DNA of 37,835 nucleotides from assembly GCA_020061515.1 (NCBI GenBank), contig JAGUYC010000258.1, positions 1 to 37,835 on the forward strand, written 5' to 3'. A program made the position numbers and the translations under genes. Position 1 is the first letter of the stretch, and every line of letters begins with the position of its first letter. Positions 3,136 through 31,405 of the stretch are shown piece after piece. The notes under the pieces are model-generated. The model was given only the letters and a program-made list of their open reading frames with translations, was not told the origin of the DNA and did no database searches. Origin of the DNA: Gemmatimonadota bacterium (GTDB taxonomy: Bacteria; Orphanbacterota; Orphanbacteria; Orphanbacterales; Orphanbacteraceae).

Positions 3136-3777
3136 CTACTTCTCCGTCTCCTTGGCCTCCGCTTTCGGGACGGGGTGGGCGATCTTCGCGGAAAACGTCT
3201 TGAAGTCGAACGGTTTATACGTCGGCGATTTCTCGTTGTGGCAGGTTTTGCAGACCGCCTCGGTGGGCTCGATGAGGCCGACCGTGGCCGGCTCGATCTC
3301 CCCCGCGTAGAGCTGCTTCATGACGGTGAGCTTCTGGTATTCGCTCCCCGGGCCGTGGCACGCCTCGCAGCCGACTCCTTCGTCGTCCTTCACGCCCCCG
3401 CGGATCGCGGCCGGCTTCCCGTGAGCAGTCACGTGGCAGACGACGCACTCGGGCGCCTGCGCGGCGGGAACAGTGAGGCCTTTCTTCTTCGCGATCTCGT
3501 CCGCCTTCGGGGTCTTCAGCGTCTCGAACGCTTTGGCGTGCGCCGATTCCTGCCAAAGCTTGTACTGCGCGCCGCTCTTCGCGGTCTGGTGGCACATCTT
3601 GCATTTGGCGGAACCGATATGGGTGAAGGCCGGAGCGGCCTCCTTCTTCGCGATCTCCTTCGCCTCCGTTGATTTCCCCGCCTCTTGCGCCGTGAGCTGC
3701 GCGGCGAGGAAGAGGGTCGAAAGGCAGGCGGCGAGCCCGCCGAGCAGGATACCGTAGCGTCTGGATCTCCGGGTCAT
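3136..3777 (-). CDS. exported four-haem c-type cytochrome (cytochrome c554-like)
   Basis: 213-residue protein with an N-terminal basic-plus-hydrophobic export signal (residues 1-31, cleavage probably near AAQLTAQEA). It has four CxxCH haem-attachment motifs: CKMCH (59-63), CVVCH (111-115), CEACH (137-141) and CKTCH (176-180). The spacing and the CEACHGPGSEY stretch resemble the cytochrome c554/c' multihaem family, so it is probably a periplasmic electron carrier or small reductase subunit; the redox partner is unknown. Two ATGs lie close together. A strong AAGGGAGG abuts the upstream ATG (3783) with no spacer but lies six bases from the ATG at 3777, which is therefore chosen. The C-terminal tail is Lys/Glu rich. 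It lies downstream of gcdH on the same strand, but a good promoter of its own lies between them. Confidence 0.88.
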   Translation of the reverse strand: MTRRSRRYGILLGGLAACLSTLFLAAQLTAQEAGKSTEAKEIAKKEAAPAFTHIGSAKCKMCHQTAKSGAQYKLWQESAHAKAFETLKTPKADEIAKKKGLTVPAAQAPECVVCHVTAHGKPAAIRGGVKDDEGVGCEACHGPGSEYQKLTVMKQLYAGEIEPATVGLIEPTEAVCKTCHNEKSPTYKPFDFKTFSAKIAHPVPKAEAKETEK

Positions 3778-21662: not shown

Positions 21663-21762
21663 TCGGCGCCACCGCTCTCTTGCTGCGACCGGCTGCGAAG
21701 GCCGCCCCGGTAGTGAAATCGCGGGGGTGCGTCCGGCGGATCGCCGGGGAGGGAAGATTCTC

Positions 21763-22260
21763 ATGCAAGGCGGCATTCGAGTCTTCGTGACGGGCGGAAC
21801 GTTCGACAAGGAGTACAACAAGATCACGGGCGAGCTCTACTTCAAGGACTCGCACGTGCTTCGCGTTCTCGAGCTTGGGCGCTGCCGCCTCGAGATCAAC
21901 GTGCGCACGCTGATGATGATCGACAGCCGGTCGATGACCGACGAGGACCGAGCGGTCATCGCGAAGAACTGCCGCTCGGCCGTGGAGGAGAGAATCGTCG
22001 TCACGCACGGCACCGACACGATGGTGGAGACCGCGAAGGTCCTCGCGCGGGAGGTGCAAGAAAAGACGATCGTCCTCACGGGAGCGATGACTCCCTACAC
22101 GTTCGGAAGCTCCGACGGTCTCTTCAACATGGGGAGCGCGCTCGCCTTCGTTCAGGCCCTTCCCCACGGCGTCTACATCGCCATGAACGGCCGGTACTTC
22201 GATTGGAACAACGTGAAGAAGAACAAGAAGACCGGCGAGTTCGAGGAGGTCGAGGGGTGA
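21763..22260 (+). CDS. single-domain asparaginase-family protein
   Basis: 165 residues, covering only the N-terminal domain of type-I/II L-asparaginases. The two active-site signatures are present: VFVTGGTFDKEY with T10 and T13, and VVTHGTDTMVET with T84/D85. TGAMTPYTFGSSDGLFNMGSAL follows as in full-length enzymes. The smaller C-terminal domain (about 150 residues) is absent, and the protein ends in a natural stop after a lysine-rich tail, so this looks like the recognised short asparaginase-domain group rather than a frameshift. Whether it hydrolyses asparagine is not shown. ATG 21763 has GGGGAGGGAAG upstream and is preferred to earlier in-frame starts. It lies downstream of rocD on the same strand. 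Confidence 0.8.
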   Translation: MQGGIRVFVTGGTFDKEYNKITGELYFKDSHVLRVLELGRCRLEINVRTLMMIDSRSMTDEDRAVIAKNCRSAVEERIVVTHGTDTMVETAKVLAREVQEKTIVLTGAMTPYTFGSSDGLFNMGSALAFVQALPHGVYIAMNGRYFDWNNVKKNKKTGEFEEVEG

Positions 22261-22346: not shown

Positions 22347-22392
22347 GCACTCCGCACCCTTGCGACGAAAACGCGTGCCTCATCCGGGCTGG
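22347..22392 (-). repeat. partial copy of the dispersed element also found at 29690-29875
   Basis: Read on the minus strand, this stretch aligns to the first 46 bases of the atp-operon element with about 38 identities, including an uninterrupted 17-base match (GCACGCGTTTTCGTCGC). No matching second terminal repeat is seen nearby, so this copy is partial or diverged. Confidence 0.6.
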
Positions 22393-22639
22393 GACGCGAG
22401 CCGACCTGCCTGTGCAGGACACGCAGACAGGTTCCGGTTCGCACCGCCGATCTCGCCGTGCCCTTGGTCCGATAAGCTCTCGGTGACGACCCTCGATCGG
22501 TGCTCGGTGCGGAGCCCGATCTCCGCACTCACTTGGAAGCGAAGACAGACCGTCGAGATGGACCGGACATCCTCGACGCCTCTCTCAAGGACGGCGGCTC
22601 AGGGAAGTCTTTTCACTTGCGCCCGTGGGCCTTATAAGA

Positions 22640-28630: not shown

Positions 28631-29143
28631 ATGGACAAACTTCTTAGCATCAGCCCGGGACTCGCGATCTGGACGATCGTGAGCTTTCTCGCCTTTTTCC
28701 TTCTCTTGCGGAAGATCGCCTGGGGGCCGGTCCTTCAGGCGCTCGAGCGACGCGAGAAGAGAATCTTCGACGCGATCGAGGCCGCGGAGCGCGCGAAGGA
28801 GGAAAGCGCGCGAGCCCTGGAGGAACAGGTCGAGGCTTTGAAGCGCGCTCGGGAGGAGGCCCGGAAGATCGTCGCCGAAGCCGCCTCGGAGGCCGGCGCG
28901 CGAGGGAAAGAGATCCTCGCCGACTCGCGGTGCGAGGCGGAAAAGCTCGTGGAGCGAGCGCGACTTGAGATCCGGAGCGAAGAAACGCAGGCGATCGACC
29001 GCGTCCGGCGGGAGGCGGTCGACCTGGCGCTCGACGCGGCGGCGAAGCTGATCGGCCGCGCGATGAGCGAGGCGGATCACCGGCGTCTCGTCGAGGAGTT
29101 TGTGGCGGAGGCGACGCGGTCCGCGGACGGGAAGCGGTCGTGA
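28631..29143 (+). CDS. atpF: F-ATP synthase subunit b
   Basis: 170 residues: one N-terminal membrane helix (LAIWTIVSFLAFFLLLRKIAWGPV), then a long charged coiled coil (residues 38-150; RAKEESARALEEQVEALKRA; REEARKIVAEAASEA). This is the peripheral stalk joining subunit a to the delta subunit and the alpha3-beta3 head. It contains one unusual Cys in the coil (ADSRCEAEK). GGGAGCGGGA precedes ATG 28631, and the stop overlaps the atpH GTG. One b gene only, so the stalk is presumably a homodimer. Confidence 0.94.
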   Translation: MDKLLSISPGLAIWTIVSFLAFFLLLRKIAWGPVLQALERREKRIFDAIEAAERAKEESARALEEQVEALKRAREEARKIVAEAASEAGARGKEILADSRCEAEKLVERARLEIRSEETQAIDRVRREAVDLALDAAAKLIGRAMSEADHRRLVEEFVAEATRSADGKRS

Positions 29144-29694
29144 ACGCGGGGGCGGGACCTCTCCTCCGCGTCTACGCCGGCGCGCTCTTCGAGCTGGCTC
29201 GCGAGGCGGGGAAGCTCGAGGAGCGAAAGGCGGAAGCGCAGCTCTTTCTCGATGCTCTCGATCGAGAGAGGCGCATCGGGAAGATCCTCGTTTCTCCGAG
29301 GGTGACGGCGGCGCGCAAAACCGCCTTCATCCACGAGGTTCTCGGCGACCTTTTCTCGCGAGACCTTCGAAGCTTCGTTCTTCTCCTCGTCGAGAAGAAT
29401 CGGCAGGTCTTCCTGCGTGAAATGCTCGAGACGTTCGTCGAGCTGTGCGAAGAAGAATTGGGAGACCTGCGCGGACGCGTATCGACGGCCGTCCCGCTCG
29501 CGGAAGAGGACGCGGCCGTCCTCGCCGAGGAGCTTTCAAGGCGCGCCGGCAGACGCGTGCTTCTCGAGAAGACCGTGGACCCGAGGCTTCTCGGGGGCGC
29601 GGTTCTCCGAATCGGAGACCGCCTCGCGGACGGAAGCCTCCGAAGGCGTATTGGGGAGCTTAGAAGGAGACTTCTCGCTTCGTCCGGAACTTAG
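29140..29694 (+). CDS. atpH: F-ATP synthase subunit delta
   Basis: 184 residues, soluble stator subunit. The N-terminal helical bundle (LLRVYAGALFELAREAGKLE) and the C-terminal region (DPRLLGGAVLRIGDRLADGS then LRRRIGELRRRL) match OSCP/delta. GTG 29140 overlaps the atpF stop by GTGA. Its own stop (TAG 29692-29694) lies inside the left terminal repeat of the fold-back element that begins at 29690, so the last codon and stop may have come from that insertion; the length is nevertheless normal. Confidence 0.94.
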   Translation: MNAGAGPLLRVYAGALFELAREAGKLEERKAEAQLFLDALDRERRIGKILVSPRVTAARKTAFIHEVLGDLFSRDLRSFVLLLVEKNRQVFLREMLETFVELCEEELGDLRGRVSTAVPLAEEDAAVLAEELSRRAGRRVLLEKTVDPRLLGGAVLRIGDRLADGSLRRRIGELRRRLLASSGT

Positions 29695-29875
29695 CCTAGA
29701 TGATGCACGCGTTTTCGTCGCGAGGATGCGGAGCGCGTGCCGAGAGGCCGACCTGGACGAGCCGCTCCCGGAATCGTAGTCTGGGCACTACGATGAGGAA
29801 GCGGCGAAGGAAGAGAGGCTTCGTAGGCCGCGAGCCGCAGCCGCAGTTGGAAACGCGTGCACAATCTAGGCTAAG
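29690..29875. repeat. 186-bp fold-back (MITE-like) element between atpH and atpA
   Basis: Terminal inverted repeats of 25 bp, 29690-29714 and 29851-29875, agree at 23 positions. They read CTTAGCCTAGAT, then two mismatched bases, then TGCACGCGTTT. The exact centre is a perfect hairpin ATCGTAGT-ctgggc-ACTACGAT (29773-29794), and GCCGCT/AGCGGC pairing continues just outside it. The middle portions pair poorly. No reading frame of note. The atpH stop is in the left repeat and the atpA ribosome site (AGGAG) begins at the first base after the right one. No clear target duplication. In the atp transcript it would form a long stem. Confidence 0.8.
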
Positions 29876-29890
29876 AGGAGCGGTTTGTTC

Positions 29891-31405
29891 ATGAAGATAC
29901 GACCCGAAGAGATTACTTCGGTAATCAAGCAAAAAATCAGGGCCTTCGAGCGGGATCTCGAGGTCGAGGAGGTCGGGACGGTCCTTGATGTCGGGGATGG
30001 GGTGGCGCGCGTGTACGGGCTTCGCTCGGCGATGGCGAGCGAAATGCTCGACTTCGGCAACGACGTATACGGAATCGCGCTGAACCTGGAGGAGGACTCG
30101 ATCGGCGCCGTGATCCTCGGGGACTACCTTCACATCGTGGAAGGCCAGGAGGTGCGGCGGACCGGCCGGATTCTCGATGTGCCGGTCGGCGAGGCGCTGA
30201 TCGGACGCGTTGTGAACCCGCTCGGTCAACCGCTCGACGACAAAGGTCCCATTGAGGCGAGGTCCCGGAGGCCGGTTGAGTTCCACGCGCCCGGTGTGGT
30301 GCATCGCCAGCCGGTGAAAAAGCCCCTGCAGACCGGCCTCAAGGCGATCGACTCGATGATCCCGATTGGAAGAGGCCAACGGGAGCTGATCATCGGCGAC
30401 CGGGGGACGGGAAAGACGGCCATCGCGGTCGACACGATCATCAACCAGAAGGGCCAGGGGGTGAAGTGCTTCTATGTGGCGATCGGCCTGAAAGCCTCGA
30501 CCGTGGCCGGCGTCGTCGAGAAGCTCACTTCCGCCCGCGCGATGGACTACACGACCGTCGTCTTCGCGGGCGCGAGCGATCCGGCCCCCCTCCAATACAT
30601 CGCACCCTACGCGGGCTGCGCGATGGCCGAGTATTTCATGTATGAGAAGAACGAGGACACGCTCTGCGTGTACGACGATCTCTCCAAACAGGCGAACGCG
30701 TACCGGCAGCTTTCCCTGGTTCTCCGGCGGCCGCCGGGGCGCGAGGCGTATCCGGGAGACATCTTCTATCTCCATTCGCGGCTTCTCGAACGCTCCGCGA
30801 AGCTGTCCGACGCCCAAGGAGGAGGTTCGCTCACGGCGCTTCCGATCATCGAGACGCAGGCGGGCGACGTCTCGGCGTACATTCCGACGAACGTCATTTC
30901 GATCACGGACGGGCAGATATTTCTGGTGAACGACCTCTTCTTCGCGGGTGTGCGTCCGGCGATCAGCGTGGGCATTTCGGTTTCCCGAGTCGGAGGAAAC
31001 GCGCAGGTCCGCGCCATGCGCCAGGTCGCCGGTTCGCTTCGGCTCGACCTCGCCCAATACCGGGAGTTGGAGGCGTTCGCGCAGCTCGGGACGGAGCTCG
31101 ACAAGACGACGCAGGCGCAGCTCGACCGAGGAGTTCGCCTGGTGGAGCTCCTGAAGCAGCCGCAGTACAAACCGATGCCGGTCGAGGAGCAGGTCGTGTC
31201 GATCTACGCGGGGACCAAGGGCTTTCTCGACGACGTTCCGGTCGCGAAGATCCGCGATTTCGAGGCGAAGTTCCTCGCGTTCATGCGGGAAGCGCACGTC
31301 GGAATTCTCCGGGACATTGGCGAGAAGAAAGAGATCACGAAAGAGAACGACACGGCTCTCGCGGCGGCGATCCGCGAGTTCAAGGACGGCTACGCGAAGG
31401 AGTAG
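29891..31405 (+). CDS. atpA: F-ATP synthase subunit alpha
   Basis: 504 residues, non-catalytic nucleotide-binding subunit of F1. P-loop [11 protein letters not shown] (169-179), [19 protein letters not shown], and [15 protein letters not shown] with the arginine finger are present. The order of N-terminal barrel, central domain and C-terminal helices is complete. AGGAG at 29876-29880 is ten bases before ATG 29891; a TTG at 29885 is in frame but too close to the ribosome site. The gene directly follows the fold-back element. Confidence 0.97.

Follow-up and report, generated by a model that had tools for sequence, protein, structure and literature searches.

The 182-bp repeat between atpH and atpA in the window (the whole 37,835-nucleotide stretch of DNA that was analyzed) very probably represents one copy of a mobile element of the ERIC/Correia/RUP kind that is lineage-specific, non-coding, and non-autonomous and has a conserved fold of rod-shaped RNA or single-stranded DNA. 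The conservation of this internal structure is more surprising than the insertion in the atp operon: paralogous copies in one genome pair nearly fully with almost no common stem sequence, which indicates selection on the fold itself. Repeats of this small fold-back type are commonly taken as decaying debris or as MITEs recognized by their sequence. Here the fold is selected and one strand is apparently favored, and the recognizer of such repeats becomes a directly testable question.

The repeat unit between atpH and atpA

The window belongs to a 3.32-Mb draft genome (G000; 341 contigs, 91% complete). By open reading frame and position in the atp operon, atpH (F1 delta subunit) occupies 29140-29694 on the + strand, followed on the same strand by atpA (F1 alpha subunit) at 29891-31405 with its ATG at 29891. 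The original prediction described a fold-back unit of 186 bp (29690-29875) in the gap. Direct reading and a script both gave 23 of 25 identical positions between the terminal repeats 29690-29714 and 29851-29875, and the hairpin expected at the midpoint is a perfect 8-bp one (ATCGTAGT-CTGGGC-ACTACGAT, 29773-29794, + strand). The left repeat contains the atpH stop codon TAG (29692-29694), and AGGAG (29876-29880, + strand), the Shine-Dalgarno of atpA, begins at the first base past the right repeat, both as had been described. The fold-back character of the unit stood, but its extent was refined to 182 bp: the alignment of 35 short copies and the comparison of filled and empty sites delimit a complete short-form element, TA-GCC...GGC-TA or more fully TA-GCCTAGAT...ATCTAGGC-TA, at 29692-29873 on the + strand, and place 29690-29691 and 29874-29875 in the flank outside the conserved unit.

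Within the element, the left outer arm GCCTAGATGATGCACGCGTTTTC (29694-29716, + strand) is paired with the right outer arm (29849-29871, + strand). The conserved structured core (29712-29853, + strand; 155 bits with covariance model R1) contains four small GA-rich internal loops and ends in the apical hairpin at 29773-29794, in place of which long-form copies have a conserved hairpin module that is ∼65 bp larger. From the filled/empty comparison, the right-hand TA (29872-29873, + strand) would be the second copy of the target dinucleotide. RNA folding of 29680-29890 gave the long stem that had been foreseen, at -113.6 kcal/mol compared with -79.8 ± 4.5 kcal/mol for 200 dinucleotide shuffles (z -7.55); none of the 200 was as low, so the fold energy is far beyond chance. 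On reading the sequence, we found no T-run of an intrinsic terminator; the window copy is followed by AGGAGCGG on the + strand and preceded by TTCCGGAAC.

Dispersal of the element and its distribution

A search for the left-arm pattern with up to three mismatches found at least 63 sites in G000 and 0 with the reversed control. Together with an empty atpH-atpA junction in the sister species, these sites bear out the original prediction of a dispersed, inserted fold-back element; the opposite result would have been a spacer conserved in relatives and no other copy in the genome. In a similarity search of G000, 40 of 145 candidates were scored and all 40 were significant, the best other copy having 95% identity. 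The copies are short and non-coding (182 or ∼250 bp), are dispersed over the genome, and carry in all full copies terminal inverted repeats similar to those of the atpH copy. Several stop at contig ends, as expected of a repeat that breaks assembly. The consensus from the aligned set of 35 short and 13 long copies reads TA-GCCTGGATnATGCACGCGTTTTCGTC...GGAAACGCGTGCATnATCCAGGC-TA. Also in the window, the arm pattern detected a second copy that has decayed to a truncated left arm (22347-22393, - strand); it lies downstream of an asparaginase-like ORF (21727-22260) that is itself perhaps cut short. In two further G000 loci, L112 (311 bp) and L109 (555 bp), recognizable arms surround much longer interiors.

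Seven genomes of this phylum were compared (G000-G006), among which G001 is of the same genus as G000 and G004 of a related genus. A covariance model built from 35 core sequences out of three genomes gave 80 matches in G000, 41 in G001, and 30 in G004, counts that include weaker opposite-strand matches of the same copies and are not independent, as copies within one genus are related by descent. G004 carries ∼25 copies. G005 has one (G005:C2:744719-744858; L249:9720-9859), located in the intergenic region that separates a cysteine-synthase-like gene from a convergent TPR-type regulator, and the covariance-model search found no copy in G002, G003, and G006.

An exact pattern run against 85,462 genomes returned 27 single scattered matches, roughly what chance alone would give, and the covariance model fits none of them (best E 0.1); the viral scan with the same pattern gave 3 matches, likewise without a fit. 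In its two source genera the pattern catches between about half and most of the copies, and divergent families elsewhere could escape it. A known RNA family was rejected: no Rfam family scored above its gathering threshold, and the matches were at chance level (E 0.19-9). By these searches the element belongs to an apparently undescribed, lineage-specific family, with no credible relative outside the lineage in the pattern scan.

Empty sites and insertion at TA

The search of relatives for an empty junction was successful in G001, where atpH and atpA meet without the element (CCCGGAACATAGAGGAGCAGCTGGTTCATG), in contrast to the filled junction of G000 (ACT-TA[GCC...GGC]TA-AGAGGAGC); genomes of other family members have short atpH-atpA gaps. 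The empty G001 site reads GGA ACA TAG, which makes the atpH stop codon of the window a composite of the insertion-site TA and the first G of the element (29692-29694, + strand). The right side in G000 has one A more than in G001, so the atp site alone leaves an exact duplication unfixed. A clean pair is found at locus L004, where ATCGC-TA-GGAGG is the empty site and ATCGC-TA[element]TA-GGAGG its filled counterpart; the filled/empty pairs at L020, L022, L025, and L030 agree with insertion at TA. At L004, L020, L022, and L025, TA stands on both sides when the site is filled and once when it is empty. The left dinucleotide differs elsewhere, often being GA, AA, or TC; a true TA duplication is thus unproven, and the element might carry one dinucleotide itself. 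In G004, a further copy has been split at its apical-loop TA by the copy L062, which lies between the two halves of this host copy. Judged from these sites, the element is mobile and inserts at TA. In a separate comparison (L105 with L190), the G001 site without the element has a short extra sequence, TTTGCGGCTATC, maybe the remnant of a lost copy.

The original prediction allowed that the repeat, as RNA, could influence the relative output of the Fo and F1 genes, which in its strongest form would make it a dedicated regulatory RNA tuning the Fo/F1 subunit ratio. The position between atpH and atpA and the very stable fold agree with such a role, but none of the relatives examined has the element in its atp operon, and copies of the sequence lie dispersed at unrelated genes. 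An atp-specific regulator is so improbable on this evidence that we ruled it out, and the absence from relatives argues against any required role there. As a mobile element, the repeat split the atpH stop codon by inserting at its TA, with the terminal G of the element restoring TAG and leaving the frame intact. A stop-restoring insertion of this kind shows how a repeat can enter a core operon and do it no harm. The atp copy would then be transcribed within the polycistronic mRNA as a strong hairpin extending from the atpH stop to just before the atpA Shine-Dalgarno. It is probably nearly neutral; an effect on processing, on atpH-atpA translational coupling, or on Fo/F1 output is possible.

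Position of the copies relative to stop codons

Genes were called by a simple codon-usage script trained on the window, and the placement counts below are approximate. In 34 of 52 measured G000 copies and in 12 of ∼26 copies in G001, the stop codon of a flanking gene takes its first two bases from the terminal TA of the element. The element's first base then completes the stop, usually as G (giving TAG); TAA occurs in two copies whose arm starts with A. In G004, ∼14 of 25 copies have the stop codon of the right-hand gene where the arm ends, at a distance of 10 to 22 nt from the core. By eye, the readable empty sites (L001, L004, L020, L025, L030, and L047) have TAG on the same strand.

Over 1.62 Mb, 17.5% of non-coding TA sites belong to stop codons, a share that 34 of 52 exceeds by far (P = 3e-14). 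Under a local null, in which only TA sites within 60 nt after stops are considered, the expected share is already 55%, or 66% for TAG only, and the observed 34 of ∼41 is a modest excess (P = 2e-4 and 0.013, respectively). The claim of strong stop-codon targeting was weakened by this comparison. TA targeting together with survival at harmless sites would explain most of the bias, with copies surviving mainly at harmless landing places, the 3' ends of genes. The precise fit into the operon that had been pointed out has a simpler cause: the element inserts at TA, stops are a main permissive TA in this GC-rich genome, and the terminal G restores TAG. In G000 and G001 together, the stop is abutted by the right end in 36 copies and by the left end in 10 (P = 2e-4). 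The atpH copy is of the rarer, left-end-abutting kind.

Conservation of the fold and covariation

The left outer arms of the G004 copies have a mean identity of 36% among themselves, compared with 86% in G000, and each is paired with its own right arm. Covariation was measured on 26 matches, consisting of 24 G004 copies (one counted on both strands) and the G005 copy. A standard pair is formed in 94.3% of the cells, compared with 74.9% in shuffles and 36.7-45.0% in slid structures. Changes on both sides were found in 39 of 45 pairs (24.5 in shuffles), and the covariation score was 0.604, against 0.230 for shuffles and at most 0.125 for slid structures. None of 500 shuffles reached any of the five covariation measures. 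The alignment was fitted to the covariance model and so leans towards pairing; the outer arms lie outside the model and give the same picture by eye. The conserved bases, as read from the folds, are those of the internal loops, 5' GA/3' GYA twice in the basal part and 5' GGA/3' GA twice in the apical part, which we take to resemble RNA modules of the bulged-G type. The comparison of copies shows a rod of stems split by conserved GA-rich internal loops, a fold that compensatory changes have preserved while the stem sequence drifted.

The two size classes differ at the apex. The long form (∼250 bp) has at its apex a larger module that contains a conserved hairpin; a pattern search for this module gave 15 matches in G000, 9 in G001, and 1 in G004; those checked for context lie inside the element. 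The G004 module is inverted relative to its core (L259, G004:C41, ∼3463-3650). One shared insertion (L056/L169) is of the long form in G000 and of the short form in G001. Another pair of shared copies (L097/L193) shows deletions, and individual copies are therefore dispensable.

Pairing kept in ∼25 strongly diverged G004 copies, GA/GNA-type internal loops that look like RNA modules, and location at 3' ends are features that would suit host-beneficial structured non-coding RNAs, acting as protein-binding sponges or mRNA 3'-end protectors, which spread by mobility and were kept for their function. Such a benefit is rather unlikely, given that orthologous copies were lost or truncated between G000 and G001 (L097/L193), that sites are empty in G001, and that G002, G003, and G006 live without copies and G005 with one.

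The probable folded strand

G.U and A.C oppositions were counted inside stems, at positions flanked on both sides by three matched pairs, all copies being read in the window's orientation. The G.U:A.C ratio was 26:8 in G004 (p = 0.003), 12:9 in G000, and 9:2 in G001, or 47:19 when pooled (P = 0.0008). Mutation alone would produce both in equal number, and the G.U excess thus indicates that the plus strand of the window is likely the folded form. G.T also stabilizes DNA hairpins, so the excess cannot separate RNA from single-stranded DNA. The G.U-rich strand is mostly opposite to the mRNA of the abutting gene (the right end abuts in 36 of 46 copies), a bias that fits recognition of single-stranded DNA, or a separate transcript, better than a role as 3'-UTR RNA. 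In our proposed mechanism, one strand, as RNA or single-stranded DNA, would be the recognized form, and the recognizer would be either a mobilizing enzyme acting in trans or a host RNA-binding protein.

Candidate mobilizing enzymes

TA at both ends, the clean TA-type pair at L004, and the terminal inverted repeats are what a classic MITE would show if moved in trans by a TA-specific DDE transposase of the IS630/mariner type, as proposed for RUP. We consider this possible but short of probable. No DDE_3 (IS630/mariner) gene was found in G000 (draft 91% complete) or G004, which counts against a DDE_3 mover; the one DDE_3 gene of G001 has no arm motifs nearby. The DDE_3 search of G000 and G004 and the flanks of the G001 gene also yielded no autonomous relative or longer element with the same ends. 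In addition, the arm sequence diverges almost freely between genera, which is unusual for a terminal repeat read by a protein.

Transposition of a folded strand has been proposed for REP/REPIN and IS200/IS605 elements, and REPs are 20-40 bp hairpins with an unpaired GTAG or CGTC tag. By analogy, a single-strand HUH transposase (Y1/RAYT-like) might act on a displaced strand that folds, cut it at TA^G, and move the hairpin; we hold this reading tentatively. Genes with Y1_Tnp (HUH) occur in the four element-bearing genomes tested (G000, G001, G004, and G005) and are absent from the element-free G002 and G003. Y1 proteins of G000 are encoded at G000:C206 and G000:C62. Structure rather than stem sequence is conserved, and the strand bias fits since G.T stabilizes single-stranded DNA hairpins. 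The TA in the stop is constant and the dinucleotide at the other end variable, which is reminiscent of an insertion next to a short target that is not duplicated, and REP termini have been reported to give TAG stops to flanking ORFs (PMC3733652). Against this, no element copy lies within the ∼1.5-kb flanks of the Y1_Tnp genes, and a RAYT gene flanked by the element was not found there; the element is also several times the length of a REP and is without the unpaired tag. The co-occurrence spans six genomes only and is a lead.

Combining fold and placement, we can also imagine, without thinking it probable, a mobile nucleic acid that is defined by its fold: a structure-recognizing enzyme would integrate copies into TAG stops and recognize the rod with four GA loops, the stems could turn over completely in a still active element, and the apical module would be exchangeable or invertible in place.

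Comparison with known fold-back repeats

ERIC, Correia, and RUP are familiar examples of small fold-back elements that have TA at their flanks and transcribed stem-loops (PMC2229807). The enterobacterial ERIC (IRU, RU-1; 127 bp), which has target duplication and long stem-loop transcripts, shares with the present element an intergenic imperfect palindrome with TA ends, and in Yersinia it was argued to uncouple translation or expose a processing site (PMC2229807). The present element differs in its size (182 or 250 bp), its unrelated host lineage, its far stronger covariation, and the replacement of stems between copies; a sequence relation to ERIC is not expected. The Correia elements of Neisseria (CREE/NEMIS) are likewise TA-flanked fold-back MITEs of two size classes that can be part of transcripts, in which case RNase III may cleave them (PMC2229807; PMC2649163). 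In contrast to them, the arm sequence varies here and the size difference is due to an apical module and not to a simple internal deletion. RUP of S. pneumoniae (107 bp) is also non-autonomous, with a TA target and inverted ends (PMC2229807); it has a candidate IS630 mover, whereas the DDE_3 search found none for the present element. REP/REPIN sequences with their RAYT have in common with it an extragenic palindrome, TAG supplied to the neighboring gene (PMC3733652), and, here, co-occurring Y1 genes, although the present element is a rod of 182 bp in which pairing extends to the terminal TA, with no GTAG/CGTC tag and no Y1 gene that it flanks. The REP termini are a precedent (PMC3733652), and the supply of a stop codon by the element is not new in itself.
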